Shown here one piece after another: positions 18,658 through 55,153 of a stretch of 64,000 nucleotides of DNA (the first letter of the stretch is position 1; each line of letters starts with the position of its first letter). The notes beneath the pieces were generated by a model. It saw nothing but the letters and a program-made list of their open reading frames with translations, made no database searches and was not told the origin of the DNA. This stretch comes from an uncultured Arenicella sp. (lineage in GTDB: Bacteria > Pseudomonadota > Gammaproteobacteria > Arenicellales > Arenicellaceae), in assembly GCA_938048185.1 (NCBI GenBank), contig CALIVT010000005.1, positions 62,001 through 126,000 on the forward strand, given 5' to 3'. Both the position numbers and the translations under genes were made by a program.

Positions 18658-18794
18658 GCTTACCTCCTTTAGACGCACCTTACCTCGTTTAGGGGCTCGA
18701 GGTTGGTTAACTCAATTGATTTGAGATTTTCGCAGTACATTAGTCGGTTTGTCAGTCGAGAACGCGACGCGCAATGACCTTACACTCTCGACCG

Positions 18795-19739: not shown

Positions 19740-19764
19740 GTGCTTTCTGTATGTGCGACCTATT

Positions 19765-19799
19765 TCGCTTTATGTATAAAAAATATCGATTTATGTATA
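19765..19799 (+). promoter_or_regulatory. Direct repeat TCGNTTTATGTATA, likely AraC-type operator
   Basis: Two 14-bp copies differing at one base, at 19765-19778 and 19786-19799, are spaced exactly 21 bp (two helical turns). They lie in the divergent interval between the GlxA-type regulator and the BKACE gene. AraC-family dimers commonly bind such tandem half-sites. The binding protein is inferred, not shown. Confidence 0.55.
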
Positions 19800-19855
19800 T
19801 CACGAAATGCTCAATTTGCGATGCTAAAGCATCGATATTTCTACGTGGACTTGCT

Positions 19856-22176: not shown

Positions 22177-22205
22177 ATATGAATTAACTGGATCTAGAAA
22201 CGTTT

Positions 22206-23384
22206 ATGAAACTCTATAGCGCTGCCACACCCGATACCTTGTCTTGGCCTACGGATATCCGCATTGAGCGTCATGAGCTTGAGGGCAAGGCGATTATCAT
22301 CCATTGGAGTAACGCGCGGCAAAGTCGTTTTCACCCTCTTTGGTTACGTGACAATTGCGCGTGCGATGGATGTTTGCACGCGGTGAGTCGCGAACACATA
22401 TTTGATATCAAAGACGTTCCAGCAGATATACAAGCGTCTGAAATAAGACTCGATAAAGGCGGGAATTTAGAAATCAAGTGGAATCATGAACAGCATTACA
22501 GCCGTTTTAATACTGGGTGGTTATACGCGCACAGCGGCTTGGTGCCTGAGCCGAGACAAGCGCTGAGCGTGTGGACCAGTGACGATCTGAATGAACCCAT
22601 AAGTTTTGAGGTTGACGGCCCGGACGTTAGCGATGCGCAGCTCAACGACGTGTTGGAAACGGTTGCCGAGTACGGTTTGGCACGCTTGCGCGGAGTCGGC
22701 TCTGAGCGAGACACGCTTGAGAGTCTCGCCTTACGGGTTGGCCCAATTCGTGAGACGCAATTTGCACGCGTGTTTGATGTGATCTCGCGGCCTAACGACA
22801 CCGACAGTAACGCCTACACCAATGAAGCACTCTCGTCGCACACTGATATACCTACCCGAGAAAGCCCGCCTGGGCTGCAATTATTGCACTGCCTTATCGC
22901 GGACGCGCGGGGCGGCGAGAGTACGATGGTCGACGGTTTTAAAGTGGCACACGACCTAAAAACTCTATTCCCCGAGGACTATCAAAATCTCGTTACTACG
23001 AATTGGTGTTACGCCAGCCGCGCGGGCGATTCTGATTATCGCTGGACCGCTCCCGTCATTGGCTTAGATAGTAGTGGCGAGGTGTCCGAGCTACGCCTTC
23101 TGCCGTTCTCGCGCGCGCCGCTAATGACCGAGTACGATAATATCGAAGTGAGTTATCGTGCGTTGCAGCGCTTTATGCGCATGGCGAACGCGTCAGAATA
23201 TCAAATTCGATACCCGTTTAGAGCAGGCGACTTAGTGATATTTGATAATCGTCGTATCTTGCATGGGCGAACTGAGTTTTATCCGCAGACCGGCGAGCGC
23301 GCGTTGCGGGGCGTCTACCTAGATCGAGATGATATGCATTCCTTTTTGCGACGCTATCGCAATACAAAAAACAGACAGGGCTAG
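22206..23384 (+). CDS. Gamma-butyrobetaine dioxygenase
   Basis: 392 aa, the size of bacterial GBBH. The N-terminal domain has WLRDNCACDGCLH with Cys51, Cys53 and Cys56, and a His near 97 that completes the structural zinc site. The catalytic TauD-type domain has His212-T-Asp214 (SSHTDIPTRE), His353 (RRILHGRTEF) and an Arg in ERALRGVYLD. It hydroxylates gamma-butyrobetaine to L-carnitine using O2, iron and 2-oxoglutarate. It is third in the operon with the BKACE enzyme and carnitine dehydrogenase (29-bp gap), so gamma-butyrobetaine can feed directly into carnitine degradation. No sign of transfer or damage. Confidence 0.93.
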   Translation: MKLYSAATPDTLSWPTDIRIERHELEGKAIIIHWSNARQSRFHPLWLRDNCACDGCLHAVSREHIFDIKDVPADIQASEIRLDKGGNLEIKWNHEQHYSRFNTGWLYAHSGLVPEPRQALSVWTSDDLNEPISFEVDGPDVSDAQLNDVLETVAEYGLARLRGVGSERDTLESLALRVGPIRETQFARVFDVISRPNDTDSNAYTNEALSSHTDIPTRESPPGLQLLHCLIADARGGESTMVDGFKVAHDLKTLFPEDYQNLVTTNWCYASRAGDSDYRWTAPVIGLDSSGEVSELRLLPFSRAPLMTEYDNIEVSYRALQRFMRMANASEYQIRYPFRAGDLVIFDNRRILHGRTEFYPQTGERALRGVYLDRDDMHSFLRRYRNTKNRQG

Positions 23385-23426
23385 CATTTGTGCTCGTCGT
23401 TGCGCCGGTGTCGTGTCTACGGGCGG

Positions 23427-23840
23427 TTACGCTGGGAACCGATCTTGATCTGAACCAATATCAACGGTCTCGCCGGTTTCAACAAAGGTGCGATTAACGT
23501 TCGATGAACCGTAGATAACCATCGCATAAACTGGACTGTCGCTGTCGTTAATTAGTTCGTGCTGTACGCCAGGCGATAGAAATGTCGAATCGTATTTCGA
23601 GCAAATAACTTCCTCCTGACCGTTTAGGATAATCTTCAGTGTGCCTTCTAGAACGGTAACTTGCTCTTCGGCGTTGTGTGTGTGCGGCGGAACTGACGTG
23701 CCAGCCGGCATTAAGGTAATACCTGAATGGATTGCTGTAGCCCCTATTTTTTTATTTGCGATAAGGTGGTTAACAATACCGAGGCCGCGTGGCACTTCTG
23801 GTAACTCGTCGAACGGTAAGTGGTTTACAGATGGTTTCAT
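23427..23840 (-). CDS. Cupin-domain protein
   Basis: 137 aa, a single beta-barrel cupin. Motif 1 is GTSVPPHTHNAEEQVTVLEGTL (H-x-H and E ligands) and motif 2 resembles STFLSPGVQHELIND with a His. This small cupin type includes metal-dependent sugar isomerases, dioxygenases and lyases, and the sequence alone does not decide between them. It converges with the gamma-butyrobetaine dioxygenase gene and is divergent from the semialdehyde dehydrogenase gene, with a long intergenic stretch on that side. Function unknown. Confidence 0.75.
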   Translation of the reverse strand: MKPSVNHLPFDELPEVPRGLGIVNHLIANKKIGATAIHSGITLMPAGTSVPPHTHNAEEQVTVLEGTLKIILNGQEEVICSKYDSTFLSPGVQHELINDSDSPVYAMVIYGSSNVNRTFVETGETVDIGSDQDRFPA

Positions 23841-38256: not shown

Positions 38257-39111
38257 ATGTCGCATAGTTATCGCATTGTTTTCGACTGCCCCGATCAAGT
38301 GGGGATTGTTACCCGGGTGGGCGAAATTATTACTCAAAATGGCGGTTGGATCTCACAGGCGAACCACCATTCTGAAGAAGAAAGTAACTGGTTTTTTTCA
38401 CGCATTGAAGTGATCGCGGATTCGTTGTCACTTAGCCGACAACAACTTGACGACGCATTGCGCCCGCTCGCTCAAGAGTTGAAAATGAACTTGAAGGTAG
38501 TCGACAGTGCGAGACCTAAACGCGTGGTTTTGATGGTTAGTAAGGGCACTCACTGTTTAGCCGATTTATTGGATCGCTGGAAAAGTAAGGAATTGTTTTG
38601 CGACATTGTCTGTGTAATTTCGAATCATGACGACATGCGCGGTTTGACTGAGTTCTATGGTATTGACTACCACCATGTGCCGATCGAAAAAGACAATAAG
38701 CAAAAAGGCTTCGACGCGGTAGAAAAGATAGTTGACGACTATCATGCTGACACCATTGTGCTGGCCCGTTATATGCAGATTATTCCGCCAGCCTTGTGTG
38801 AAAAGTATCAGTATCAGGTGATTAACATTCATCATAGTTTCCTGCCGTCATTTATTGGCGCTCGCCCCTATCACCAGGCTCATAGGCGTGGCGTCAAGCT
38901 TATTGGGGCGACTTGTCACTACGTTACTCAGCAGCTCGACGAAGGCCCAATTATTGAGCAAGATGTGGCACGGGTAAATCACAGCGACGCCGTAGAAACG
39001 CTAGCGCGACTTGGCAAAGATGTTGAGAAAACGGTGCTGGCTCGAGGCTTACGCGCGCATTTAGAAGACCGGGTGCTGGTACACGGTAATAACACTGTCG
39101 TGTTTAACTAA
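38257..39111 (+). CDS. purU: Formyltetrahydrofolate deformylase
   Basis: 284 aa, the standard PurU size. An N-terminal ACT domain (about 1-80, starting SYRIVFDCPDQVGIV) is followed by a formyltransferase-fold domain with the catalytic region VINIHHSFLPSFIGARPYHQ and the late LDEGPIIEQD Asp. It hydrolyses 10-formyl-THF to THF and formate. It is the first gene of a unit with a dimethylglycine-dehydrogenase-like gene 21 bp downstream, which suggests that its job here is to release formate from methyl groups oxidised on THF, for oxidation by the nearby formate-dehydrogenase-like complex. Confidence 0.96.
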   Translation: MSHSYRIVFDCPDQVGIVTRVGEIITQNGGWISQANHHSEEESNWFFSRIEVIADSLSLSRQQLDDALRPLAQELKMNLKVVDSARPKRVVLMVSKGTHCLADLLDRWKSKELFCDIVCVISNHDDMRGLTEFYGIDYHHVPIEKDNKQKGFDAVEKIVDDYHADTIVLARYMQIIPPALCEKYQYQVINIHHSFLPSFIGARPYHQAHRRGVKLIGATCHYVTQQLDEGPIIEQDVARVNHSDAVETLARLGKDVEKTVLARGLRAHLEDRVLVHGNNTVVFN

Positions 39112-39132: not shown

Positions 39133-41583
39133 ATGGCTAAACAGCTTCCGTCTTCCGCCCAAGTCGTTATTGTTGGCGGCGGTGTCATTGGTTGTAGTAT
39201 CGCGTACCACCTCACCAAATTAGGCATGAATAATGTCGTTCTATTGGAACGCAAGCAATTGACTTGCGGCACCACTTGGCACGCCGCGGGCTTGGTGCCG
39301 ACTTTGCGTGCTAACTACAGCATGTCGATGCTGGCTAATTACAGCGCCAGTTTATACGAAACCTTAGAGGCGGAAACCGGCCAAGCAACCGGGTATACGC
39401 GCAATGGTTCGCTCACCGTTGCCACTAATAAAGAACGCTTTAGTGAACTCAAGCGGGGTGCGTCGATGGCAAAAGTTGCCGGCTTCCCGTGTGATGTTAT
39501 AGACCCTGAACAAGCCCGAGACCTATGGCCGCTGCTAAATATTGATGATGTAATTGGCGCAGTTCATTTACCCAATGATGGCATGACAAGCCCGGTAGAT
39601 GTGACTCAAGCCTTAGCTATTGGTGCGCGCAAAGGCGGTGCGCAAATCTTTGAGCACACTAAAGTACTCGATATGAAGCTTAAGGGCGGCAAGGTAGCGG
39701 GTGTTATTACCGAAAAGGGTGACATCGATGCTGAATACGTGGTCAATTGTGCGGGCATGTGGGCACGCGAGTTTGGTAAAAAAGCAGGTGTCAGCGTGCC
39801 GCTGCATGCCGCCGAACATTTCTACGTCGTGACTGAGCCTATTCACGGTTTAGATCACGGCTTGCCGACTTTGCGCGATATGGATGCCTATAGTTACTTC
39901 AAAGAAGATACCGGCAAGCTGTTGGTTGGTATGTTTGAACCCGATGCCAAGCCATGGGGCATGGACGGCATTCCAGAAGATTTTTGTTTTGATGAACTGC
40001 CTGAGGATTTTGACCATTTGATGCCGTACCTAGAAATGGCAATGCATCGCGTTCCGCAAATGGCTGAAACCGGCTTGCAAGTGTTTTTCAACGGCCCCGA
40101 ATCGTTTACGCCCGACGATGCGTATCATTTAGGAGAGGCGCCTGAGTGTAAAAACTATTTTGTCGCTGCGGGTTTTAATTCAGTGGGCATTCAATCCGCT
40201 GGGGGCGCTGGGAAAGTACTGGCTGAGTGGATACAAAAAGGTCATGCTCCTCAAGATTTATGGGGCGTTGATATTTTGCGCAATATGCCATTTCAAAATA
40301 CTCAACGTTATTTGGAGGAACGTACAACCGAGTCACTGGGCTTATTGTACGAAACTCATTTTCCGTTTAAGCAATATAAAACTGCGCGCGGTGTGCGCCG
40401 TTCGGTGCTGCACGATAAATTAGCATCACTGGGTGCTGTATTTGGTTCAGATAATGGCTGGGAACGTGCTAACTGGTTTGCCAACGAGGGGCAGACGCCG
40501 GAATACGAATTATCGTTCGGTAGGCAAAATTGGTTTGACAATAACAAAGCCGAACACCAAGCAGTGCGTAATGCTGTGGGTGTGATTGACCAAAGTTCAT
40601 TCTCGAAGTATCAAGTAGAAGGTCCCGACGCAGAAACGTTTTTGAATCGTGTGTGTTCAAATGACGTGGCGGTGCCGATTGGCAAGATGGTCTACACACA
40701 GTTTCTCAATGACCGAGGCGGTATTGAGGCGGATGTAACGGTTACACGTCTTGCTCAAGACAAGTATATGGTCGTCTCTGGCGTGGCATGCCAAACTCGC
40801 GACATGAACTGGTTACGCCGAAATAAAGACGCAGATGAGGTCGTTATTATTAATGATGTCACTTCGGCCTATGCGGTCGTTACCGTTATGGGGCCAAGGT
40901 CTCGTGATACCTTAAGCAAGCTGACGCAGGCCGATATGAGTCATGAAGGCTTCCCGTTTGCAACCTCGCGTGAAGTTGATATGCAATACGCGATCGTACG
41001 TGCCTCACGAATTACCTACGTGGGTGAACTCGGTTGGGAACTATATATACCCACCGAGTACGCGCCAAGCGTGTACGAAGCGGTATTAGCGGCCGGTGCC
41101 GAGTTTGGCATTAAGCCCTATGGTTATCACACCATGAATTCTTTACGTATCGAGAAGTGTTATCGCCATTGGGGTCACGATATTACCGATGAGGATACGG
41201 CGCTTGAGGCTGGCCTAGGGTTTGCGTCAAACTTTAACAAACCTAATGGTTTTACCGGCAAAGAAGCGCTGCTTGTACAAAAAGAGCAAGGCCCACTGAC
41301 CAAACGTTTTGTGGCGTTCCTATTTGAATCCCCCGAGCCTCTTTGCTATCACGAAGAGCCCATCTGTGCGAACGGCGAAGTGGTTGGACGAGTCACGTCC
41401 GCTATGTTTGGCCACACAGTGGGCGCGACAATCGCAATGGGTTACGTAGAAAATGCTGAGGGTGTCACTAAAGACTGGCTTGACGATACTCAGTTTGAGA
41501 TTGAAGTTGAATGCGAGCGTTACAACGTTACTCCATCGTTGCGTCCTTTCTATGATGCTAAGATGGAGAGAATTAAAGCGTAA
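39133..41583 (+). CDS. Dimethylglycine/sarcosine dehydrogenase-like FAD and folate enzyme
   Basis: 816 aa, the length and layout of DMGDH/SARDH: an N-terminal DAO-type FAD domain (VVIVGGGVIGCSIAYHL), then a GcvT-like folate domain and a C-terminal aminomethyltransferase barrel. His50 in CGTTWHAAGLVP matches the histidine that carries covalent FAD in DMGDH. It demethylates dimethylglycine or sarcosine and passes the methylene group to THF. The choice between the two substrates cannot be made by eye. It sits between purU and an XRE-cupin regulator. A good TTGGAGC ribosome site precedes the ATG. Confidence 0.9.
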   Translation: MAKQLPSSAQVVIVGGGVIGCSIAYHLTKLGMNNVVLLERKQLTCGTTWHAAGLVPTLRANYSMSMLANYSASLYETLEAETGQATGYTRNGSLTVATNKERFSELKRGASMAKVAGFPCDVIDPEQARDLWPLLNIDDVIGAVHLPNDGMTSPVDVTQALAIGARKGGAQIFEHTKVLDMKLKGGKVAGVITEKGDIDAEYVVNCAGMWAREFGKKAGVSVPLHAAEHFYVVTEPIHGLDHGLPTLRDMDAYSYFKEDTGKLLVGMFEPDAKPWGMDGIPEDFCFDELPEDFDHLMPYLEMAMHRVPQMAETGLQVFFNGPESFTPDDAYHLGEAPECKNYFVAAGFNSVGIQSAGGAGKVLAEWIQKGHAPQDLWGVDILRNMPFQNTQRYLEERTTESLGLLYETHFPFKQYKTARGVRRSVLHDKLASLGAVFGSDNGWERANWFANEGQTPEYELSFGRQNWFDNNKAEHQAVRNAVGVIDQSSFSKYQVEGPDAETFLNRVCSNDVAVPIGKMVYTQFLNDRGGIEADVTVTRLAQDKYMVVSGVACQTRDMNWLRRNKDADEVVIINDVTSAYAVVTVMGPRSRDTLSKLTQADMSHEGFPFATSREVDMQYAIVRASRITYVGELGWELYIPTEYAPSVYEAVLAAGAEFGIKPYGYHTMNSLRIEKCYRHWGHDITDEDTALEAGLGFASNFNKPNGFTGKEALLVQKEQGPLTKRFVAFLFESPEPLCYHEEPICANGEVVGRVTSAMFGHTVGATIAMGYVENAEGVTKDWLDDTQFEIEVECERYNVTPSLRPFYDAKMERIKA

Positions 41584-43550: not shown

Positions 43551-46454
43551 ATGAACCATCCAATTGACTCGCTCCCTGAATTTGAGAATCACGCGGAGCA
43601 GGACACTAAGTTCACGACTTGCTATATGTGTGCGTGTCGCTGTGGCATAAAGGTGACCACGGAGGGCAACGAAGTTCGCTTTATTCAAGGCAACCCGAAT
43701 CATCCAATCAACAAAGGCGTGTTGTGTGCCAAAGGCAACTCTGGAATCATGAAACAGAGCTCGCCCGCTAAGCTGCGCTCGCCCTTATTGCGCAGACCAG
43801 GCACTGAGCGTGGGGCAGGTGAGTTCGATGAAATTTCTTGGGATCAAGCGCTGGATATATTGACTAAGCGACTGAAACACATTCGTGCGACAGACCCCAA
43901 GAAGCTTGCTTTTTTCACTGGCCGCGATCAAATGCAAGCGCTAACTGGGTTTTGGGCTAGCCAATTCGGTACCATTAATTGGGCTGCGCACGGTGGCTTC
44001 TGTTCAGTGAACATGGCGGCGGCCGGTTTGTATACTACTGGGCATTCGTTTTGGGAGTTCGGTGACCCCGACTGGGACAACACTAAGTACTTTATGATGT
44101 GGGGTGTTGCCGAAGACCACGCGTCGAACCCGATTAAGATTGGGCTGAAAAAACTAAAAGAACGTGGTGCGAAGTTTGTCGCGGTTAACCCAGTTAGAAC
44201 CGGCTATCAAGCGATAGCAGATGAGTGGATTGCGGTACGCCCAGGTACCGACGGCATGTTAGCGCTGGCAATGGTGCACGTGTTGTTGCAGCATGACCTG
44301 TTCGATGACGAGTTTTTGGTGCGTTATACCAACTCACCACGCTTGGTGGTCAATACGCCCGGTCAGCAAGGCGACGGTTTATTTTTGCGCGATAACGATG
44401 GCGCAGCCTTGGTTTGGGATTTGCAGAGCGAGAAATTTGTCGACAGTGACCGCGTGGATATAAGCCCAGCATTGTTCGGCGATTTCGTGGCGCCTGACGG
44501 TCGCCCGGTGCGCACGGTAATGAGTTTACTCGCCGATAAGTACCTAGTCGATGAATACGCACCGGAAGTTGCGGCTAAAGCCTGTGGTGTGCCTGCTGAA
44601 ACAATTGAACGCTTAGCGTTAGAAATGGCGCACGTTGCGTTTAAAGAAAGTATTACGATTGACTGCGAGTGGACGGATTGGGCCGGTCGTAAACAAACTC
44701 AATTTGTGGGCCGACCCGTATCGATGCACGCAATGCGCGGCATTTCCGCGCACTCAAATGGTTTTCAAACCTGTCGCGCGATTCATTTGTTGCAGATCAT
44801 GCTAGGTACCATTGACTGCCCTGGCGGCCACTTGGCCAAACCGCCATTCCCGAAACATATTCCACCGCATCTAAAACCCGCGCGTGATATGGCGCCGAAT
44901 ACGCCACTGAGCTCCGCGCCACTTGGCTTCCCGACTGAGCCGGAAGACTTATGTATTGATGGTGACGGTAATCCACTGCGAATCGACAAGGCATACTCTT
45001 GGGATGCGCCAATTGCGAACCACGGTTTGATGCACATGGTAATCAGCAATGCGGTTAAGGGTGATCCGTATGAGATCGATACCTTAATGCTGTTCATGGC
45101 GAATATGGCATGGAACTCAAGCATGAATACGGCCAATACTATGGCCATGTTGCGCGAGAAACGTGAGGACGGTGAATACAAAATCCCGTTTATCGTGAAC
45201 TCCGACGCGTTTCATTCGGAAATGGTTAATTACTCTGATTTGGTGTTACCTGACACCACATTTCTAGAGCGCTTCGATACTATCTCAATGCTCGATCGGC
45301 CGATTTCAGAACCGGACGCGGCGTGTGATTCAATCCGTCAGCCGATTCTCGAGATTGATCGGAATGTTCGGTCTTGGCAAGAAGTATTGATTGATCTGGC
45401 CGGGCGCCTGGATTTCCCGGCCTTCAAGAATGGGAACGGCGAGAATAAGTACCAAGATTATAAAGATTTTATTATTAACTATGAACGTGCACCGGGTATT
45501 GGCTTTTTGGCTGGTTGGCGTGGTAAAGACGGCGACCAACACCTCTGCGGTGAACCGAATCCAAAGCAGTGGGAAAAGTACATTGAAAATGAATGCTTCT
45601 TCAAATACGACTTGGCCCCGAATCAGCGCTATATGCGCCACGCGAATCGAGATTATTTAGAGCTGGCCCAAAAAGCCGGCTGGGTTGGTTCGACTGATCA
45701 AATTATGATCGAGGTTTATTCTGAAACGTTGCAAAAATTCCGTTTGGCCGGTCAAGGGCTATATGACGGCCCGATGCCAACCGACGAGCAGCATAAGCAG
45801 CGGCTCACCGAGCATTTTGATCCCTTACCGTTTTACTATCAGCCGCTAGAACAACAGCGTATCGATAAAGGCGAGTATCCATTTCACGCAGTGACTCAGC
45901 GTCCAATGTTTATGTACCATTCATGGGACTCGCAAAATGCGTGGCTGCGCCAGATCACTTCGCAAAATTATTTGTACATGAACCGCGATGAATGTGGCCG
46001 TTTGGGCATCGACGATGAAAGCTGGGTGTGGGTGGAATCGCACAACGGCAAAATTCGCGCGCAAGTTAAGCATATGGATGGGGTAGAGGCCAACACGGTG
46101 TGGACTTGGAACGCCATCGCCAAAGCGCCTGGTGCTTGGGGCTTAAAGAAAGATGCGAATGAGAGCAAAGATGCGTTTTTACTGAATCACTTAATTTCGG
46201 AACTACTGCCACCGAAAGCCAGTTTCGCTGATATCACGAATTCAGACCCAATAACAGGTCAGGCCGCGTGGTATGACTTGAGCGTGAAAATCACCCCCGC
46301 GGCAGCGGGCGAGACCGGCGCATGGCCACAGTTTGATGAAGTTAAGCCCCTGCCTAATCAACCTTCGTCGCCCGCAGAAATAAGCTATGCAACGCATGCA
46401 AACGTTAACCTTAAACGCAGCTTTAAAGACATACTGACGCGAGGTGCAAAATGA
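43551..46454 (+). CDS. Molybdopterin oxidoreductase catalytic subunit, probable formate dehydrogenase
   Basis: 967 aa. An N-terminal [4Fe-4S] site is Cys24, Cys27, Cys31 and Cys59 (TTCYMCACRCG and GVLCAKGN). DMSO-reductase-family domains follow, with VNPVRTGYQAIADEWIAVRPGTD. Cys151 in AAHGGFCSVNM lies where the family supplies the Mo/W ligand, so a cysteine-ligated enzyme of the formate dehydrogenase or polysulfide/thiosulfate reductase type is expected. There is no Tat signal, so it should be cytoplasmic. Partners are an FeS subunit (4-bp overlap) and a DmsC-like anchor, with folD behind. The surrounding one-carbon genes favour formate, but the substrate is not proven. Confidence 0.85.
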   Translation: MNHPIDSLPEFENHAEQDTKFTTCYMCACRCGIKVTTEGNEVRFIQGNPNHPINKGVLCAKGNSGIMKQSSPAKLRSPLLRRPGTERGAGEFDEISWDQALDILTKRLKHIRATDPKKLAFFTGRDQMQALTGFWASQFGTINWAAHGGFCSVNMAAAGLYTTGHSFWEFGDPDWDNTKYFMMWGVAEDHASNPIKIGLKKLKERGAKFVAVNPVRTGYQAIADEWIAVRPGTDGMLALAMVHVLLQHDLFDDEFLVRYTNSPRLVVNTPGQQGDGLFLRDNDGAALVWDLQSEKFVDSDRVDISPALFGDFVAPDGRPVRTVMSLLADKYLVDEYAPEVAAKACGVPAETIERLALEMAHVAFKESITIDCEWTDWAGRKQTQFVGRPVSMHAMRGISAHSNGFQTCRAIHLLQIMLGTIDCPGGHLAKPPFPKHIPPHLKPARDMAPNTPLSSAPLGFPTEPEDLCIDGDGNPLRIDKAYSWDAPIANHGLMHMVISNAVKGDPYEIDTLMLFMANMAWNSSMNTANTMAMLREKREDGEYKIPFIVNSDAFHSEMVNYSDLVLPDTTFLERFDTISMLDRPISEPDAACDSIRQPILEIDRNVRSWQEVLIDLAGRLDFPAFKNGNGENKYQDYKDFIINYERAPGIGFLAGWRGKDGDQHLCGEPNPKQWEKYIENECFFKYDLAPNQRYMRHANRDYLELAQKAGWVGSTDQIMIEVYSETLQKFRLAGQGLYDGPMPTDEQHKQRLTEHFDPLPFYYQPLEQQRIDKGEYPFHAVTQRPMFMYHSWDSQNAWLRQITSQNYLYMNRDECGRLGIDDESWVWVESHNGKIRAQVKHMDGVEANTVWTWNAIAKAPGAWGLKKDANESKDAFLLNHLISELLPPKASFADITNSDPITGQAAWYDLSVKITPAAAGETGAWPQFDEVKPLPNQPSSPAEISYATHANVNLKRSFKDILTRGAK

Positions 46455-47245
46455 AGCTCGGACTGGTAATTGACTTAGACACTTGTGTGGGTTGTCATGC
46501 GTGCGCGACTGCGTGTAAGCAATGGAACACCTCGGGTACCATCGGTCCGTTGTCTGATCAGGACCCGTATGGCAAAGACCCTAATGGTTCATGGCTGAAT
46601 CGTATTCGTACCTTTGAGGTAAAAGAGCCGGAACCTTTGCCAACAAAAGGCCAAGGCTGTGGTTCCCAGAAGTTTGACTTGCACGCCTTAGCAACTGAAG
46701 GTACATCCGCGTTATTAAGCGATGCTTCGCCAGCAAGTAAAACGGTTCACATGCCGATGTCCTGTATGCAGTGTGAGGACGCCGACTGTGTCACGGTATG
46801 CCCAACCGGTGCGTCGTATAAGCGTGAGGAAGACGGTATTGTGTTGGTCGATCAAGATAAGTGCATGGGCTGCAATTTGTGTTCCTGGGCGTGCCCATAC
46901 GGTGCTCGCGAGTTAGACGAAGAGCAGGGTGTAATGAAGAAGTGCACGTTGTGCGTCGATCGTATTTATGACCAAGCTCTACCCGAGTCCGAGCGTCAGC
47001 CGGCGTGTGTGCTGAGCTGCCCTACTAGCTCGAGGGTGTTTGGTGATTTTGATGACCCAACCTCAAAGGTGAGTCAGTTGGTGGTTGAACGAAATGGTCA
47101 GCCATTGATGCCTGAATTAGGTTACAAGCCGACCAATCAATATTTACCGCCGCGAAATAAAGAAGCAGTGGCGATGATGGCTAAGACTAATGAGCCGGCC
47201 TTATCAAAACTGAAGAAATGGGCAAATCGCGTGATCGCGCGATAG
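46451..47245 (+). CDS. Four-cluster ferredoxin-like electron-transfer subunit (DmsB/FdhB type)
   Basis: 264 aa. Four Cys clusters are visible: CVGCHACATACKQWN near 14-28, CMQCEDADCVTVCPTGA near 98-114, CMGCNLCSWACPYGAR near 138-153, and CTLCVDRIYDQ...CVLSCPTSSRVFGD. This is the pattern of DmsB, NrfC and FdnH subunits that pass electrons between the molybdenum subunit and a membrane anchor. It lacks the C-terminal transmembrane helix of FdnH. The start overlaps the catalytic subunit gene by 4 bp, and the anchor follows after 16 bp. Confidence 0.93.
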   Translation: MKLGLVIDLDTCVGCHACATACKQWNTSGTIGPLSDQDPYGKDPNGSWLNRIRTFEVKEPEPLPTKGQGCGSQKFDLHALATEGTSALLSDASPASKTVHMPMSCMQCEDADCVTVCPTGASYKREEDGIVLVDQDKCMGCNLCSWACPYGARELDEEQGVMKKCTLCVDRIYDQALPESERQPACVLSCPTSSRVFGDFDDPTSKVSQLVVERNGQPLMPELGYKPTNQYLPPRNKEAVAMMAKTNEPALSKLKKWANRVIAR

Positions 47246-47261
47246 TGCTCGGATTAATAAT

Positions 47262-48200
47262 ATGAAACCTGCATTTTCAGTTCTGTTTTTTACCGTCACG
47301 TCGGGCATCGGTTATGGCCTGTTAATCTGGCTGGTGCTGACGCATTTAATGACGAGCGGCGACTTTGGTATTACTCACTTTATGATCGTTGGTTTTATCG
47401 GTTTAACCTTAGCAACCTTAGGTTTGTTATCGTCGACCTTGCATCTAGCAAACCCGAAAAACGCGTGGCGAGCGTTTAGCCGCTTTCGCACATCATGGTT
47501 ATCGCGCGAAGGTGTATTTGCCTTGGTCTTCTACCCGGTTTTTTTGGCCTACGCGTTATCGGTGTATCTCAATAACGGTGACGCGACTATTATTGTTAAA
47601 GCGCTCGGCATCGTCTCTATTAGTATCGCGCTCGCGACCTTAATTTGCACGGGCATGATTTACGCCAGCTTAAAACCGATTCGGCAATGGCATAACCCAC
47701 TGGTTACACCGTTGTACTTGAGCTTCGGTTTGGTCAGCGGCGCGTTAGCGTATTCAATGCTGCACCTCGCACTAACAGGCTCACTATCATGGCCTGTAAG
47801 CCAAGCGTTTCTGGTGTTGATTGTGATCTCGTTTATCGCCAAGATGCTTTACTTCAACTCGATTGGCAAGCCTGACGGCTCGACCATAAGTACCGCGACC
47901 GGGTTTAGTCAAGCGCAGGTGCGATTGCTTGATGCCGGGCATAATGCGGACACTTTTTTGACAAAAGAGTTTGTTTTCGACGCTGGCGCGATTAAACTTC
48001 TACGTCTCCGATGGTTGATGGTTGTCTTGGCGTTTATCGCGCCGATACTTCTGATGCTGGCGGCGCATAAATTGAATATTGCGCCATTGGCTTATTTGGC
48101 AATGGCCTGTTTATGCGTCGGCTTGTTTATCGAACGTTGGTTGTTCTTCGCCGAAGCGAGACATGTTGTTCGTTTGTATCACGGTGACCAACAGACTTAA
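47262..48200 (+). CDS. DmsC-family membrane anchor subunit
   Basis: 312 aa with about eight hydrophobic helices. It resembles the DMSO reductase anchor DmsC: an N-terminal PAFSVLFFTVTSGIGYGLLIW, FSRFRTSWLSREGVFA (the conserved SWLSRE motif) and LHLANPKNAWRAF. It anchors the complex to the cytoplasmic membrane and exchanges electrons with quinone. With a cytoplasmic catalytic subunit the complex would oxidise its substrate inside the cell and reduce quinone. folD follows 31 bp later, in the same transcript. Confidence 0.9.
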   Translation: MKPAFSVLFFTVTSGIGYGLLIWLVLTHLMTSGDFGITHFMIVGFIGLTLATLGLLSSTLHLANPKNAWRAFSRFRTSWLSREGVFALVFYPVFLAYALSVYLNNGDATIIVKALGIVSISIALATLICTGMIYASLKPIRQWHNPLVTPLYLSFGLVSGALAYSMLHLALTGSLSWPVSQAFLVLIVISFIAKMLYFNSIGKPDGSTISTATGFSQAQVRLLDAGHNADTFLTKEFVFDAGAIKLLRLRWLMVVLAFIAPILLMLAAHKLNIAPLAYLAMACLCVGLFIERWLFFAEARHVVRLYHGDQQT

Positions 48201-49141: not shown

Positions 49142-49176
49142 TAAAATTTAAGCGAATAATTTTCGCTTAAATTTTA
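49142..49176. terminator. Bidirectional terminator between folD and the Lin0512 gene
   Basis: A perfect 15-bp inverted repeat, TAAAATTTAAGCGAA and its complement, has a 5-nt loop. A/T-rich outer arms give a U-run in both directions. The right arm overlaps the stop codon of the minus-strand Lin0512-family gene. Confidence 0.85.
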
Positions 49177-49512
49177 ACCAGCAAAGCAGACCAGCACCAC
49201 CACATTAACGACGACCATCAAGTCCTGGCCATTTTCAGCTGGTACATCTAGCCCACCTAGCTCAGTTTGAATCGTGACATCGCCATAAGGAAATTCGTTC
49301 GCTACCGCATCGGTATCAATTAATTCAGGTTTTTGCGCGCCGACTTTTACAATGAGCTGCATGTCGTCACGCGTGTATTCAATGTGCGGGAAAAAGTTAA
49401 TGCTCGAGTGTCTAATCGCGTCGGACACCGCGCGTTTGGCAGCTTTAGTGTAGTCCCCACCATGTACGTCTACGCCCATGCCCATTTCGGTCAAATATCG
49501 TTTTAGTGCCAT
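49174..49512 (-). CDS. Lin0512-family conserved protein
   Basis: 112 aa. The N-terminus LTEMGMGVDVHGGDYTKAAKRAVSDAIRHSS carries the E-M-G-x-G-x-D-x-H-G-x-D-x-T-K-A-A pattern of the lin0512 family (TIGR02058), whose function is unknown to me. It is soluble. The conserved Asp and His residues could bind a metal or a pterin-like ligand, but this is a guess. It is the last gene of the minus-strand xsc-pta-cobS-cobT series, 26 bp after the CobT-like gene, and has an AGGAGA ribosome site. Confidence 0.8.
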   Translation of the reverse strand: MALKRYLTEMGMGVDVHGGDYTKAAKRAVSDAIRHSSINFFPHIEYTRDDMQLIVKVGAQKPELIDTDAVANEFPYGDVTIQTELGGLDVPAENGQDLMVVVNVVVLVCFAG

Positions 49513-49538
49513 TGTCGTCTCCTGTTTGTAACGCGAAT

Positions 49539-51260
49539 CTATACTGCTCGGCTCAATAACTCGGCTATTGCAAAGAAATCTTTTGTAACTAATTCATCAC
49601 TAAGGCTAATAGACATACTTTCGCGGTAGTAAGCGGTTAGATCTAAACCCACACCTAAGGCGCAAAGCTTTATATCGGGTCGTCGTTCAATGCTGGCAGC
49701 TGCCGCAGCTAGGTGCTTGTCTAAATAGCGGTCTGAATTCGCAGCATGGGTTGCGGTGTCCATTGGCGAGCCATCCGATAGCATGATAATTATCTTGTTG
49801 TGCTCTGGTCGAATTTGAATGCGCTCTGCGGCCCAAAGCAGTGCTTCGCCGTCAATGCCCTCTCTAAATAAATCAGACCTCAATAAGCCAGCTATTGATG
49901 AGCGAGCGCGTCGCCAAGGTGTTTCCGCTGCTTTGTAAACTGTGTGGCAAATCGAGTTTAACCGTCCGGGGTTTTCAGGCTTGCCCGCAATTGCCCACTC
50001 TTTTAACACCTTGCCACCATTCCAGTCGGTCGTAGTGAAACCCAATAGTTCAGTTTTAATGTCCGCCAGTTCAAGAGATTTTGCTAGTGTGTCGATCAGC
50101 GCAGCAACTTTTTCGTTATGGTGAGTCATTGACCCCGAGTTGTCGATCACAATACTGACCACACAATCGCTCGCTAGTGTATTTTTCTCGCGTCGAAAAA
50201 GTCGATGATCGTTGGGGGACGTAACCAGCTTCGTCAAGCGCGCTGAGTCTAAGTGACCTTCTTCTTGGTCGAACCTCCAGCCGCCGCGCTGCGGGTTAGA
50301 CACTAATTGCTTTAGGTGACGTGCAACACGATGAGTGTTGACACTTTGCAAGCGAATGCGCTTGTCCAATTGCGCGCGTAGCTTTTTCAGTTGTGCGGCG
50401 CGAATAACATCGGTGGTAAAAACAACTTTGTCGTAGGCGCTGTTGAAAATTTTATACTCGTACGCAGCGCTTTCGTTATCAAGGTCATCAACCTGAGACG
50501 CTGCAACGCTCAGAACTATGCTTGAATCATCGCCGTCTAACCATCTCATATTGAGTTGTTTATTATTAGCAAGCGAGCGGATGGTATCTTTTAGTTGTGA
50601 ATCGTCGTCACCATTAGCATCGTTAGCTTGATCGATCATGCGGCCAACTTCGTGGGCGATACCCAACGCATGCTTGGCAAACACACTTTGGTCACCAATA
50701 TTTTTTTTGAATTCGTAGAAATGACGTTTTAGCTCTTCAGAAAACCCCCAGCGCGTGCCCTCGATTAGATCTTCTATTTGTTCTGGAATAGTTTGTGAAT
50801 GTAAACGCGACCAGCATACGACGTTAATCGTAAACAGTAGCATGCCGATATTATTTTCGACCAGAGACGATGCCGCTGCCTGATGCGCCCAAAATAAAAA
50901 CCGATTCCTAAGGTTCGACTGTATACCGGGCAATGAGCTTGGCGCCAGCGCCTCGCACCGGAGTTGTTCCAGCAATTCGAAAACCAATTGTTCAATGGGC
51001 TGGTTCGGCACGCGCGTTATGTGCTCCGTCAAATCGCTATAAACAAGCCGCAGCGCTATGCTGTCTGCGACACCTCGCAATTGGTGGGTACGGTGCGTCG
51101 AAAAATCGAGGTGTAAATACGGCGCTTGTAGTAAAAACGGACTATCCTGAACGACCAGATGATGCCCGCGAAAATACACAGACGGCTGATTCGAAATAGC
51201 GCGCACAGTCGCCGCACACCAATTTTCGAGTTTTTGTTGCAGAACCTCTTGGCGTTCCAT
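49539..51260 (-). CDS. CobT-like VWA-domain protein
   Basis: 573 aa. The C-terminal half is a von Willebrand A domain with the MIDAS motif VIDNSGSMT near residues 369-377, and the CobT-type segments LGFTTTDWNGG and IIIMLSDGSPMDTAT. The N-terminal half is helical, as in CobT. CobT with CobS forms the AAA+ chaperone part of aerobic cobaltochelatase, which needs CobN. No cobN or corrin gene is here. The gene follows the CobS-like gene by 14 bp and the Xsc/Pta genes upstream, so the pair may load a metal or remodel another enzyme. Shorter than typical CobT (about 630 aa), with less of the acidic linker. Confidence 0.85.
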   Translation of the reverse strand: MERQEVLQQKLENWCAATVRAISNQPSVYFRGHHLVVQDSPFLLQAPYLHLDFSTHRTHQLRGVADSIALRLVYSDLTEHITRVPNQPIEQLVFELLEQLRCEALAPSSLPGIQSNLRNRFLFWAHQAAASSLVENNIGMLLFTINVVCWSRLHSQTIPEQIEDLIEGTRWGFSEELKRHFYEFKKNIGDQSVFAKHALGIAHEVGRMIDQANDANGDDDSQLKDTIRSLANNKQLNMRWLDGDDSSIVLSVAASQVDDLDNESAAYEYKIFNSAYDKVVFTTDVIRAAQLKKLRAQLDKRIRLQSVNTHRVARHLKQLVSNPQRGGWRFDQEEGHLDSARLTKLVTSPNDHRLFRREKNTLASDCVVSIVIDNSGSMTHHNEKVAALIDTLAKSLELADIKTELLGFTTTDWNGGKVLKEWAIAGKPENPGRLNSICHTVYKAAETPWRRARSSIAGLLRSDLFREGIDGEALLWAAERIQIRPEHNKIIIMLSDGSPMDTATHAANSDRYLDKHLAAAAASIERRPDIKLCALGVGLDLTAYYRESMSISLSDELVTKDFFAIAELLSRAV

Positions 51261-51274
51261 TGATCTAGGTTAAC

Positions 51275-52255
51275 CTACTCGAACCAAGCGCTGATCGATT
51301 CGCTTTCAGGTAGTTCTTTGTCGAACGCGCGTTGAAAGTATTCGGCGATGATTGAGTACTCAGCCTCATCACATTTATTTAAAAATGACAGCCTAAACGA
51401 CGCTGCGATGTCATGAAAAATTTGTAGGTTCTCGGCCCAAAAAATCACCGTTCTGGGTGACATTAAGGTTGAAATGTCGCCCGCGTTAAAGCCATGCCGA
51501 GTGAGGTTGGCCAGCGCTACCATCGAGCTAATATTTTTACGACCTTCATCAGTGTCAAGTGCGGGTACACGGCTCAATACAATATTCTCTTCGTCTTCAG
51601 GCGCTAAGTAATTTAACTTCGCAACGATATTCCAGCGGTCAATCTGCGCTTGATTCATCATCGAGGTACCATGATATAAACCAGTTAAATTTCCTAGGCC
51701 AACGGTATTTGCAGTGGCAAATAGTCGAAAATTAGGATTCGGTGACAGCACTCGGTTTTGATCAAGTAAGGTGAACTTACCTTCGCGTTCAAGGATGCGC
51801 TGAATTACAAACATCACTTCAGGGCGAGCCGCGTCTAGCTCGTCAAATATCAACGCGACTGAACGTTGAATCGCCCAGGGCAATATACCTTCTTGAAACT
51901 CGGTGACTTGTTTGTTGTCTTTAAGCACCACGGCATCTTTGCCGATTAGATCCAAGCGGCTAATATGGCCATCGAGGTTAACTCGTACACATGGCCAGTT
52001 TAAGCGCGCGGCGATTTGCTCGATGTGAGTCGATTTACCCGTGCCGTGCATGCCTTGCACCATCACGCGGCGATTGTGGATAAAGCCCGATAGAATAGCC
52101 AGAGTGACATCCGCATTAAACCGATAAGCCTCGTCAATTTCGGGCACATGTTCGTCGCGTTCGGCAAAGCAGGGGACCTTTAACTGAGAGCTAAAACCAA
52201 AGAGTGCTTGCGCGGTCTTATACTCGGTAGGCGCTAGTGTATTTAAGTCTGTCAT
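51275..52255 (-). CDS. CobS-like AAA+ ATPase (MoxR/CobS class)
   Basis: 326 aa, the size of CobS. Walker A is GMHGTGKST (68-76), Walker B is ALIFDELDAARPEV, and FRLFATANTVGLGNLTGLYHGT is a sensor-1 region specific for CobS-like proteins. It hydrolyses ATP as a ring with its VWA partner to drive metal insertion or protein remodelling. An AAGGAT ribosome site precedes the ATG. The gene is 18 bp from pta and 14 bp from the CobT-like gene. The client is probably not cobaltochelatase, since no CobN gene is in the window, but CobN could be elsewhere on the chromosome. Confidence 0.88.
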   Translation of the reverse strand: MTDLNTLAPTEYKTAQALFGFSSQLKVPCFAERDEHVPEIDEAYRFNADVTLAILSGFIHNRRVMVQGMHGTGKSTHIEQIAARLNWPCVRVNLDGHISRLDLIGKDAVVLKDNKQVTEFQEGILPWAIQRSVALIFDELDAARPEVMFVIQRILEREGKFTLLDQNRVLSPNPNFRLFATANTVGLGNLTGLYHGTSMMNQAQIDRWNIVAKLNYLAPEDEENIVLSRVPALDTDEGRKNISSMVALANLTRHGFNAGDISTLMSPRTVIFWAENLQIFHDIAASFRLSFLNKCDEAEYSIIAEYFQRAFDKELPESESISAWFE

Positions 52256-52273
52256 CGTATCCTTGGGCCGCTG

Positions 52274-53218
52274 TTAGGTGTTTGGGTTTGACGCATTTGC
52301 ATAAATAGAAGCGAGTGCGGTTGCCGCTAAACGAGCTGCCGCGGGGTCGGCTCTAGAGGTAAGCACAATCGGGACTTTAGCGCCCAATACAATGCCGGCC
52401 GCAGCGGCGCCCATGAAATAAACCATTTGTTTAAATAATGCGTTACCGGTTTCAATATTAGGAACCAACAATACATCGGCGTTACCCGCAACCGGGTGAT
52501 CTATCTTCTTTAATTTTGCTGCCGCTGGCGATACGGCATTGTCGAATGCGAACGGCCCGCCAACTAATGCACCGTTAACCTCGCCTGCGTTTGCCGCCGC
52601 GACAACGTCGGCTGCTTCCATACTGGATTTTATTGCTGGAGTCGCGACCTCAGTTGCTGATAAAACGGCGATTCGAGGTTCGGAATACCCTATCGCGTGC
52701 ATCAGACTTGTGACGTTACGCGCAATGTCTAGCTTAATCGCAACACTCGGTTGAACGTTAATCGCAGCGTCAGTAATGCAAATAGCAGCATCTGAATTTG
52801 GCACGCTCATGTGAAAGACATGGCTTAACCGTGTGCCCGTTCGCAGCCCACGTTCTTTGTCTATCACCGCTTTGAGTAGGTGGTCGGTGTGTATGTTGCC
52901 TTTCATTAAAGACGAGACCTCGTTACTTCGAGCCAATGCGACAGCAGCCTGTGCTGACGTGCTTTCATCCGCGGCGCCGACAATACGAAAGCCTGAAATA
53001 TCCCACTGCATTTCCTTAGCAGCGGCGTTGATACTGCTTTTATCGCCCACTAAAACAGGCGTTATTAGGTTTTCGTCAACCGCCATTTTTACGCTGCGCA
53101 TCACTACCGGTGAACCAGCATTGACGATGGCGGTGGTGGCGCGCGGCAACGGCGACGCTCGAGTTAACAGTGTGGTTGGACATTCTACGGGTGTAGAGCA
53201 AAGAAAATTGTCGGCCAT
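52274..53218 (-). CDS. pta: Phosphate acetyltransferase of the sulfoacetaldehyde pathway
   Basis: 314 aa, the short form of the phosphate acetyl/butyryltransferase family. The family features are LMKGNIHTDHLLKAVI, RLSHVFHMSVP, VPNIETGNALFKQMVYF and GAKVPIVLTSRADPA. It would convert acetyl phosphate from Xsc to acetyl-CoA. Position right after xsc supports this over phosphate butyryltransferase. A CAGGAGA ribosome site precedes the ATG, and a strong terminator sits about 20 nt upstream of the start. Confidence 0.88.
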   Translation of the reverse strand: MADNFLCSTPVECPTTLLTRASPLPRATTAIVNAGSPVVMRSVKMAVDENLITPVLVGDKSSINAAAKEMQWDISGFRIVGAADESTSAQAAVALARSNEVSSLMKGNIHTDHLLKAVIDKERGLRTGTRLSHVFHMSVPNSDAAICITDAAINVQPSVAIKLDIARNVTSLMHAIGYSEPRIAVLSATEVATPAIKSSMEAADVVAAANAGEVNGALVGGPFAFDNAVSPAAAKLKKIDHPVAGNADVLLVPNIETGNALFKQMVYFMGAAAAGIVLGAKVPIVLTSRADPAAARLAATALASIYANASNPNT

Positions 53219-53237
53219 GAGTTAGGTCTCCTGTATG

Positions 53238-53272
53238 CAAAAAAATAGACGCCAAGGTATCTTGGCATCTAT
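53238..53272 (-). terminator. Minus-strand terminator or attenuator between xsc and pta
   Basis: Read on the minus strand, ATAGATGCCAAG pairs with CTTGGCGTCTAT (12 bp with one G-T pair, 4-nt loop) and is followed by seven T residues. Only about 20 nt separate it from the pta start, too little for another promoter, so it either limits read-through from xsc or acts as a regulated attenuator. No recognised riboswitch is seen in the 117 nt upstream. Confidence 0.85.
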
Positions 53273-53389
53273 CAATTCTAATACGTTACTCTTAAAAACT
53301 ATAATCAGTTGGTACAACAGCCCGCTTTTCTTCAATGCGATAACAGCTTGCAGCTAGTTCAAGGCATGCGTACCCAATCTTTATATTTT

Positions 53390-55153
53390 TTATACGTAGT
53401 CTTTATACTTTTCTAGATAACGAGTTGGCTTGGCCAGCGCATCTTTGCGGAATGGGTCACCTAATTCACGCGTGCACATCACTTCGATTACACAGGTTTT
53501 GCCTTCATTCATTTGCATATCAACTGCTTTCTTTAACGCCGGGCCAACGTCTTCTAGTTTATCGACAACGATACCTTCTGCGCCCATCGCGATGGCAATT
53601 TGCGCAAAGCTCTCACTTTCCAACTCGCCTGCGACAAAGCGCCGGTTGTAGAAGTCCACTTGGTTCTTCTTCTCAGCACCCCATTGACGATTATGAAACA
53701 CCACCGCGGTAACTGGAATGTCGTGTCGCACGCAGGTCATGATTTCAGTCATGCTCATCGCCCAAGCACCGTCACCCGCGTAGGCAATCGCAGGCCGTTC
53801 GGGCGCGGCTGTTTTTGCGCCAATCATCGTTGGCAGCGCGTAACCGCAGTTGCCGAAACTCATGGGCGCGAAGAAAGACCGTGGTCGCTCAAAGCGCAGG
53901 TAACTGTGTGCAACTGAGTTAATGTTGCCGATGTCGGTAGACACCATTACGTCAGCCGGCATGGCTTTTTCAAGCTCGCGCAATACTTGGCGAGGGTGCA
54001 GCCAGTTGCCTTCTTCGCCCTCAGCTTCGGCGATCATGTCTAAGCTGTAGTCATCTTTTTCGTGAATCCACTCGTCGAGCTCTTGTTCCCAAGCTGCTTT
54101 CTCAGATGCAATTTCAGCCGCGCGTTCTGCTTTATTCGCATCGCACGCAAGTTCACGACCATCCAACAATCGAGTCAACGCAACCGCAGCCGCTTTCGCG
54201 TCACCGCAAATTCCTACCGAGATTTTCTTAACCAAACCAAGCATTTTGTGGTCGGCATCGATTTGAATGATCTTAGCGTCTTTGGGCCAGTAGTCCATGC
54301 CATGCTGAGGCAATGTTCCAAACGGGCCAAGGCGTGAACCCAAGGCAATGACCACGTCGGCTTTCGAAATAAGCTTCATACCGGCTTTGGAACCTTGGTA
54401 GCCCAGAGGGCCACACCAAAGTGGATGACTGGCTGGAAATGAATCATTGTGCTGGTAGCTGTTCACAACCGCGGCGCCAAGGCGCTCGGCAAGTGTTTGG
54501 CATTCGGCCATGCCGTCCGCCATCACTACTCCGCCACCAGATACAATAACCGGGAACTTAGCTTGAGCTAGAAGGTCCGCTGCCTCCTGTAGAGTGCGTT
54601 CGCCGCCGGGGCCGCGATCGAGTTTTTGTGGCTGTGGAATTTCAACATCAATATCACCATAGAAATAATCGCGCGGAATATTTAGTTGTGTTGGCCCAAT
54701 TTCAGAATGAGCGCGATCAAAACAACGGCCGGTATACTCAGCCATACGCGCTGGATGGTTTACGTGACCTTGATACTTTACGAACTCTTGGAACATGGGC
54801 AGTTGCGCGGCTTCCTGAAAACCGCCTAAACCTTGAGTGACCGTGCCTGTTTCCGGTGTAATCATGACGACTGGGCTATGAGCCCAATATGCAGCCGCAA
54901 TAGCGGTTACACAATTAGAGATGCCGGGGCCATTTTGACCAATGACAACACCGTGGCGGCCTGTTGCGCGAGCATAGCCGTCAGCCATATGCGCCGCACC
55001 TTGTTCGTGTACCACTGGAATTAGGCGAATGCCGGCGGGCGCGAAGATATCCATCGCATCCATAAAAGCCGAACCCATAATACCGAATATATCAGTAACC
55101 TCATTTGCTACTAACGTCTCAACGAACGCTTCACTGGGAGTCATGCGAGCCAT
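53390..55153 (-). CDS. xsc: Sulfoacetaldehyde acetyltransferase
   Basis: 587 aa, a ThDP enzyme of the acetolactate-synthase superfamily. Residues typical of Xsc are MGSAFMDAMDIFAPAGIRL and the ThDP-activating Glu50 in VVHEQGAAHMADGYARATGR. The ThDP/Mg motif is AYAGDGAWAMSMTEIM, and the sequence ends KPTRYLEKYKDYV. It converts sulfoacetaldehyde and phosphate to acetyl phosphate and sulfite. Sulfoacetaldehyde comes from taurine, isethionate, sulfoquinovose-derived compounds or choline-type sulfonates; none of the upstream enzymes is in the window. A sulfite handling gene is also absent. Divergent from gmd. Confidence 0.94.
   Translation of the reverse strand: MARMTPSEAFVETLVANEVTDIFGIMGSAFMDAMDIFAPAGIRLIPVVHEQGAAHMADGYARATGRHGVVIGQNGPGISNCVTAIAAAYWAHSPVVMITPETGTVTQGLGGFQEAAQLPMFQEFVKYQGHVNHPARMAEYTGRCFDRAHSEIGPTQLNIPRDYFYGDIDVEIPQPQKLDRGPGGERTLQEAADLLAQAKFPVIVSGGGVVMADGMAECQTLAERLGAAVVNSYQHNDSFPASHPLWCGPLGYQGSKAGMKLISKADVVIALGSRLGPFGTLPQHGMDYWPKDAKIIQIDADHKMLGLVKKISVGICGDAKAAAVALTRLLDGRELACDANKAERAAEIASEKAAWEQELDEWIHEKDDYSLDMIAEAEGEEGNWLHPRQVLRELEKAMPADVMVSTDIGNINSVAHSYLRFERPRSFFAPMSFGNCGYALPTMIGAKTAAPERPAIAYAGDGAWAMSMTEIMTCVRHDIPVTAVVFHNRQWGAEKKNQVDFYNRRFVAGELESESFAQIAIAMGAEGIVVDKLEDVGPALKKAVDMQMNEGKTCVIEVMCTRELGDPFRKDALAKPTRYLEKYKDYV

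Follow-up and report, generated by a model that had tools for sequence, protein, structure and literature searches.

A CobS/CobT-like AAA+/VWA pair linked to sulfoacetaldehyde acetyltransferase as a candidate remodelling motor for Xsc

In a stretch of 64,000 nucleotides from an uncultured Arenicella sp. (assembly GCA_938048185.1, contig CALIVT010000005.1, positions 62,001 to 126,000; hereafter, the window), genes for a CobS-like AAA+ ATPase and a CobT-like VWA protein lie next to the genes for sulfoacetaldehyde acetyltransferase (Xsc) and phosphate acetyltransferase (Pta). The aerobic degradation pathways of taurine, isethionate and sulfoacetate, which form an important route in the sulfur cycle, have their hub in Xsc, a thiamine diphosphate (ThDP)-dependent enzyme; an earlier report likewise describes it as a hub (PMC6453916). 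By analogy with known motors of the same type, we propose that the CobS-like/CobT-like pair may be a dedicated AAA+/VWA remodelling motor for Xsc of the window type, a reading that we consider about evenly balanced between right and wrong. We infer that Xsc itself is the physical client and that the action on it is activation, cofactor loading or repair.

The genes for Xsc, Pta, the CobS-like protein, the CobT-like protein and a Lin0512-family protein follow one another in this order on the minus strand, from 55153 to 49174 (Table 1). Coordinates together with Pfam and NCBIfam matches confirmed what the initial annotation had described, namely these five genes on one strand with gaps of 14–26 bp after pta (18, 14 and 26 bp; the gap between xsc and pta is 171 bp). 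Xsc scores above its equivalog cut-off (TIGR03457, 1062.9 vs 676.4 bits), and the Lin0512 protein is above both family cut-offs (PF09585, 106.7 vs 23.4 bits; TIGR02058, 66.2 vs 56.85 bits). The CobS-like and CobT-like proteins fall under the equivalog cut-offs for CobS (TIGR01650, 500 vs 558.55 bits) and CobT (TIGR01651, 338 vs 759.05 bits).

Table 1. Features of the window discussed in the text (positions counted from the first nucleotide of the window)
Feature	Position	Strand	Basis
xsc, ThDP-dependent sulfoacetaldehyde acetyltransferase, window-type subfamily	53390..55153	-	TIGR03457; C-terminus KYKDYV
Terminator-like hairpin, 13 pairs and T run, between xsc and pta	53244..53273	-	consensus scan alone
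pta, phosphate acetyltransferase	52274..53218	-	PF01515 E 1.1e-37; NF006045 348 bits vs cut-off 282
CobS-like AAA+ ATPase	51275..52255	-	TIGR01650 500 bits; alignment; tree
CobT-like VWA protein	49539..51260	-	CobT_C 185.5 bits; TIGR01651 338 bits; MIDAS columns
Lin0512-family protein, optional third gene, FtsZ-like fold	49174..49512	-	PF09585; structure model
Molybdopterin oxidoreductase, Fe-S protein and membrane anchor	43551..48200	+	generic family matches

The motifs expected of a working motor are in place. According to the alignment, both Walker A (GMHGTGKST) and Walker B (FDELDA) are intact in the CobS-like protein. The CobT-like protein has a complete metal ion-dependent adhesion site (MIDAS; D373-S375-S377, T410 and D496), every position of which is kept in at least 103 of 104 CobT-like rows. 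An AAA+ ATPase with intact Walker motifs thus adjoins a VWA gene with an intact MIDAS, the arrangement that characterizes remodelling pairs. CobT-like proteins are shorter than those of the alphaproteobacterial type (median length of 573 aa in 104 rows vs 612.5 aa in 16 rows), and their middle region is usually less acidic.

The conservation of CobS/CobT with xsc in relatives, which the initial annotation had put forward as a check, was found over a wide range of bacteria. A genome scan with the CobT-like alignment covered the best 80 of 140 confirmed relatives, all titled genome records; xsc is present on 52 of these 80 stretches and on 33 of the 42 that extend at least 7 kb to each side of cobT. 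The median distance between CobST and xsc is about 1.1 kb (48 measured cases). Over a larger set of 110 stretches, Xsc, clustered at >60% identity, turned out to be the commonest family besides CobS/CobT (68 of 110, or 66 of 106 without duplicate contigs). An IclR regulator is present on 55 of the 110, and any other cluster on at most 31. The duplicate contigs (xsc-bearing L052 and L085, xsc-free L108 and L109) are inside the 110- and 80-locus counts and are excluded from the trees and from the 144-stretch count used below; short Xsc pieces in L072 and L121 were scored as xsc present. CobT_C neighbourhoods from relatives include xsc in 10 of 20 cases (stretch L030 stops at pta, at a contig edge), and those on plasmids in six of ten.

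Linked xsc and cobST genes occur in gammaproteobacteria, betaproteobacteria and Actinomycetota. The proteobacteria include Comamonadaceae, Burkholderiaceae, Alcaligenaceae, Aromatoleum, Vibrio and Pseudomonas, and the Actinomycetota are represented by Streptomyces, Amycolatopsis, Paenarthrobacter and Acidimicrobiales. Among 69 linked cases, xsc and cobST are arranged divergently in 37, with the rest split evenly between convergent (16) and codirectional (16). Orientation varies while closeness is kept, meaning that the arrangement has been rebuilt with proximity preserved. The AAA+/VWA pair is thus genetically linked to one enzyme, though not at every locus.

Plasmids show the same association. 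Among 72,556 plasmid records, Xsc at 80–90% identity is found in ten, and CobS at 68–73% identity in seven, all of them among the ten with window-type Xsc; none of the seven is among the 145 records in which the Xsc matches all stay below 60% identity. Ten further records have CobS at 58–64%, and the four placed in the tree fall into the alphaproteobacterial-type clade described below. The seven plasmid or secondary-replicon cases, together with genomes that carry one partner without the other, are also what would be expected if cobST and xsc shared mobile catabolic islands without any joint function. The nesting of Streptomyces and Amycolatopsis copies among proteobacterial ones in both the CobS and the Xsc tree fits such hitch-hiking as well. 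The linkage, however, persists across gammaproteobacteria, betaproteobacteria and Actinomycetota, although the other neighbouring genes differ and three orientations occur, and we consider hitch-hiking decidedly improbable. As a separate observation, the CobT-like protein has matches in 941 plasmid records, most of them from Klebsiella, Escherichia and Acinetobacter according to genus counts; the Klebsiella rows listed are distant (about 25% identity) and are named 'porphyrin biosynthesis protein' or CobT.

We also analyzed genome samples that had not been selected on cobT neighbourhoods. Here, window-type Xsc means at least 77% identity, and the scoring of CobT disregarded weak CobT_C matches (below about 30 bits) and one partial match of 62 bits in G530. 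In the sample of the window's class (281 genomes), 14 genomes have xsc above the cut-off. A strong CobT is present in 10 of these 14 vs 3 of the 267 others (nominal Fisher p 4e-13, uncorrected for relatedness). For CobT of the orphan type alone, to which the window's belongs, the counts are 5 of 14 vs 0 of 267 and, once the window's genus is excluded, 3 of 12 vs 0 of 265 (nominal p 6e-5). Among all drawn genomes of the class with window-type Xsc, the window's genus again left out, an orphan-type CobT is present in eight of nine cases (G142, G208, G216, G253, G255, G319, G392 and G555, the exception being G388); in six of the eight, it lies on the same contig as xsc within about 30 kb. In the phylum sample (299 genomes), 25 genomes have xsc and all 25 have a CobT_C match. 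The seven from the window's class, its own genome included, all have an orphan-type CobT. In the 18 outside the class, the CobT (>250 bits) is either on a different contig or separated from xsc by more than 110 kb. These 18 weigh little, because such a CobT is carried by 114 phylum-sample genomes outside the class and because it is far from xsc. Counts from relatives, plasmids and genome samples together place the arrangement beyond chance. In the Xsc tree, a 75-row clade (Shimodaira–Hasegawa-like approximate likelihood ratio test (SH-aLRT) value of 100, quick method) comprises 69 rows whose stretch also carries CobST, four with CobST elsewhere in the genome, G388 and G860; since the rows were mostly gathered through CobT, this ratio is not a frequency.

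Could the pair instead drive a genuine cobaltochelatase whose CobN is encoded elsewhere in the genome? The protein families agree with this (E values against the profiles are 1e-176 for PDB CobS chains and 5e-128 for PDB CobT chains), and so does the gene order cobS-cobT along with the Walker and MIDAS motifs shared with CobNST. The lack of cobN that the initial annotation had seen in the window was, on the other hand, borne out genome-wide: CobN/BchH (PF02514) has no match in the genome that the window comes from, which is 98.2% complete and in 42 contigs, other corrin genes not having been searched for genome-wide. CobN was likewise not found in 15 of 21 CobT_C-bearing relatives. It was further sought in the genomes of 50 of the 80 loci, chosen by us; 22 of these 50 named genomes with a CobT-like gene have it and 28 do not.

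The surroundings of CobN were inspected at 15 loci, taken from 10 of the 22 CobN-bearing named genomes and 5 of the 14 CobN-bearing relatives. On the fetched stretches of these loci, tblastn detected no CobS or CobT near CobN. A TIGR02442-type ChlI/ChlD-like motor is located beside or near CobN at eight of the 15, and a CobW-like gene at 11; six have no ChlI/ChlD match among those listed, with no further search made, and L180 has another CobN-like type. CobN, where present, often has another motor at hand. L180 (genome G007) encodes a CobN-like protein of about 1450 aa with small membrane-protein neighbours, a context that we presume to be closer to an HmuS-type dechelatase than to cobaltochelatase. 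Three-part CobN-like matches as in G007 are also present in G003, G005, G008, G012 and G018.

The CobS tree (118 rows, those of up to 250 aa left out; midpoint drawing, bootstrap not fully settled) separates the two types. Seventeen alphaproteobacterial-type rows form a clade with bootstrap/SH-aLRT values of 100/99, and all 70 xsc-linked CobS rows, the window's included, are outside it, in agreement with the initial suggestion that a tree might set the window's CobS apart. Some rows of the 17-row clade come from gammaproteobacterial genomes, and three (L023, L050 and L051) are annotated as cobS; that the clade serves CobN rests on annotation and family. Absence of CobN, a separate CobS clade and CobN's own motor led us to reject the cobaltochelatase reading, which we regard as extremely improbable. 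The window's pair differs from CobNST in these respects and also in its shorter CobT and its xsc neighbour. The initial idea of an AAA+/VWA pair with a client other than CobN is in turn supported by the conserved neighbourhood, the CobS clade and the CobN-less genome.

Alphaproteobacterial-type cobST genes may themselves stand in other contexts. In L023 (Pandoraea oxalativorans plasmid pPO70-1), cobS-cobT come directly 3′ of ureG, and the cluster also includes ureD and the urease subunit genes. In L050 (Sphingomonas) and L051 (Cereibacter), cobST are near BolA and J-domain genes, and no other cob gene is annotated on these two stretches. Orphan CobST may be commoner among the alphaproteobacterial type than thought.

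The client had initially been sought in C2-sulfonate or quaternary-amine use. The first part of this suggestion could be narrowed to Xsc by its presence on 68 of 110 stretches. A quaternary-amine client was dropped: carnitine/choline genes are present in the window, yet they are no constant theme in the maps of relatives. Genes accompanying Xsc point to different entry routes. Genes annotated as NTF2-family and FAD-binding oxidoreductase, which we take to be the TauX/TauY taurine dehydrogenase, are found on 32 of 144 stretches, counting that of the query itself. A GMC dehydrogenase cluster, presumably of the IseJ kind, is found on 19 of 110 stretches and a SauS cluster on 12 of 110, the one member tested being above the SauS cut-off. 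Even Pta is split into two clusters, of 31 and 15 loci. Taurine, isethionate and sulfoacetate all pass through Xsc, whereas the entry enzymes and Pta vary; this makes Xsc the likely client. The pair might nonetheless serve some other C2-sulfonate component that travels with xsc, involved in sulfite handling or being a molybdo-enzyme, a transporter or a regulator. SoeA-like, TauZ-like, TRAP and IclR genes do recur in the neighbourhoods. The SoeA-like cluster (8 of 110), the TauZ-like cluster (8 of 110) and IclR are nevertheless each less constant than Xsc, and we think this alternative unlikely.

Another feature of Xsc that could matter is its C-terminal tail. All 66 linked Xsc proteins counted (the frame-shifted one of L110 was left out) end with KY[KRQ]D[YF] plus one residue, which is V in 64, T in one and C in one; DYV is found in 58. 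The tails of unlinked Xsc from G860 (KYAEYT), G434, G525 and G585 deviate from this pattern. Two of 587 Xsc columns part linked from unlinked window-type Xsc (three unlinked rows), one of them being the last residue.

Several observations weigh against Xsc as the dedicated client. The loci of the genome scan were chosen by similarity to the window's CobT. Of the 42 well-flanked loci, 9 have no xsc. Three Rhodococcus plasmids (DK17, DK176 and DK180) have an 85% identical xsc, with the same score, and no CobS on the plasmid. In the class sample, five of the ten CobT-bearing xsc genomes (G396, G423, G498, G548 and G613) have alphaproteobacterial-type CobST away from xsc, and four xsc genomes (G388, G434, G525 and G585) have no strong CobT. 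Among 288 Actinomycetota, xsc was found in four (G644, G708, G823 and G860). The three drawn ones, G708, G823 and G860, have no CobT_C match; G644, the sole one with CobT, is the centre of the sample and was reached through its CobST. The seven CobT-less xsc genomes rule out a universal need of Xsc for CobT. Two of the seven have window-type Xsc (G388, 80%; G860, 77%), the rest being at 48–67%, so that even this Xsc is not always accompanied by the pair, although constant company is stricter than what the family demands. The tail is weak evidence, because G388 without CobT has KYQDYM, which fits the pattern save for the last residue, and because the Xsc of Rhodococcus DK17 keeps KYKDYV with no CobS on the plasmid (the chromosome was not searched). 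The mirror-tree distance correlation between Xsc and CobS (0.55, L110 and L048 left out) could be explained by common descent. Finally, the sister group of the window-type CobS has no xsc on stretches L033, L034, L035, L038, L040 and L112. These same six of the group's seven stretches have hemH, and four of the seven have cbiX; this hemH-cbiX group likely has a different client.

With these points weighed, our best reading, again by analogy, is that the motor would work on Xsc as CbbQO works on Rubisco, without being obligatory for Xsc. CbbQO, a MoxR AAA+/VWA Rubisco activase, likewise consists of an AAA+ protein and a VWA/MIDAS protein encoded beside one enzyme. MIDAS mutations mostly abolish Rubisco activation, and the client Rubiscos share a C-terminal motif (PMC5437159). 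The window's pair differs in having a CobS-type AAA+ protein (CbbQ chains score 42.8 bits with the CobS profile) and a ThDP enzyme as the predicted client. NorQD is a machine of the same type. In NorQD, a finger of the VWA protein lies inside the pore of its AAA+ partner, and a twisting mechanism has been proposed for iron insertion (PMC13036017). Its client is the membrane nitric oxide reductase, and against the CobS-like profile NorQ reaches only 27.1 bits. If NorQD and CbbQO are taken as models, the VWA domain of CobT would be held by a CobS hexamer. CobT could then grip Xsc through its MIDAS, perhaps also via the conserved Xsc tail, and the active site of Xsc would be opened by ATP hydrolysis for activation, Mg-ThDP loading or release of a dead-end product. 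We infer that this is a known motor type with a new client. Our search of the open-access literature, closed journals being outside it, revealed no paper joining sulfoacetaldehyde acetyltransferase with cobaltochelatase.

Two more specific versions concern the cofactor. ThiG is encoded on 5 of 144 stretches (L054, L059, L073, L128 and L168). In L054, it is part of a TauY-ThiG-TauZ-Xsc run; in L073 and L128, ThiG and a ThiO-like gene (in L128, 233.6 bits vs a cut-off of 250.8) adjoin IclR-CobS-CobT, with ThiS also present in L073; the L168 stretch has ThiG and no CobST. ThiG in sulfonate clusters fits special care of the ThDP cofactor. CobST might thus insert Mg-ThDP or a metal once, at maturation, into Xsc or an entry enzyme. 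The shared machine type favours such a loader, NorQD being described as a metal-insertion motor (PMC13036017), and so do the five sulfonate clusters with ThiG. However, no metal-transport gene is prominent, a CobW-like cluster being found on 5 of 110 stretches. Moreover, ThDP enzymes normally take up Mg-ThDP unaided, and we rate the loader reading as quite unlikely. Metal loading, named next to activation in the initial annotation, is one option among others, with nothing found that points to it.

Alternatively, the pair might be a repair machine for Xsc. In this version, sulfite released by Xsc beside ThDP would attack and split the cofactor, leaving a dead enzyme. The motor could pull the active site open and eject the sulfite-split ThDP in exchange for a fresh one, with thiG/thiS/thiO-like genes recruited in some clusters as the supply. 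In one review, sulfite damage to thiamine is ascribed to thiamine disulfide and not to cleavage (PMC5753639). We hold this version to be improbable.

If Xsc is indeed served by a dedicated ATP-driven helper, the CobS/CobT family would gain a new client, and many genes annotated as cobaltochelatase in CobN-less bacteria would find an explanation. In that case, cobS and cobT alone would be poor evidence of B12 synthesis. It would also mean that a soluble catabolic enzyme, outside Rubisco, has its own AAA+/VWA activase.

The Lin0512 gene does not share the constancy of the pair. It is present on 9 of 144 stretches, many of the 144 being cut short. The nine are the window and four congeners, plus Aromatoleum, Azoarcus, Vreelandella and Gallionella. 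In the window and its four congeners, a single gene is 3′ of cobT; in the other four, two matches follow in a row. Lin0512 is found in 9 of 61 relatives, next to cobT in five, on another contig in two (G018 and G036) and without CobT in two (G031 and G050). The three-protein maturation system that had been suggested initially does not hold as a core, and Lin0512 was discarded as a core component; it looks like an occasional, optional third part. The structure model (predicted local distance difference test score of 86.6) has the Nostoc protein 3c8l as its nearest solved structure, with weaker similarity to FtsZ and chorismate-mutase folds, and the fold search gave no catalytic hint. Sequence family and fold are shared with 3c8l, the gene here being placed after cobT. 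Nothing on Lin0512 was found by title in the open-access literature.

The remaining features of the locus are of less direct relevance. Judging from its family, Pta would convert acetyl phosphate from Xsc into acetyl-CoA. Expression may be reduced downstream of the predicted hairpin in the xsc-pta gap; should the hairpin be real, there would be less of the motor than of Xsc. Terminator-like sites in the region number 6 vs 8.8 expected in shuffles. The molybdopterin trio is a neighbour outside the motor and is presumably a SoeABC-type sulfite dehydrogenase (no model assigns this name), which would probably remove the sulfite made by Xsc. Similar trios are present on the xsc/cobST stretches L028, L046 and L047. 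In the window, the trio is followed by folD at 48232. Also near the xsc operon are genes for a DMGDH/GcvT-like flavoprotein (39133-41583, plus strand) and PurU (38257-39111, plus strand), which could feed in N-methylated taurine as a candidate role; DMGDH-like genes are found on L028, L030, L031, L064 and L115 as well. Farther away, positions 13083-23840 are devoted to carnitine/choline use, with carnitine 3-dehydrogenase and choline dehydrogenase above cut-off; genes for a BCCT transporter and for gamma-butyrobetaine-hydroxylase-like proteins were assigned there by eye.

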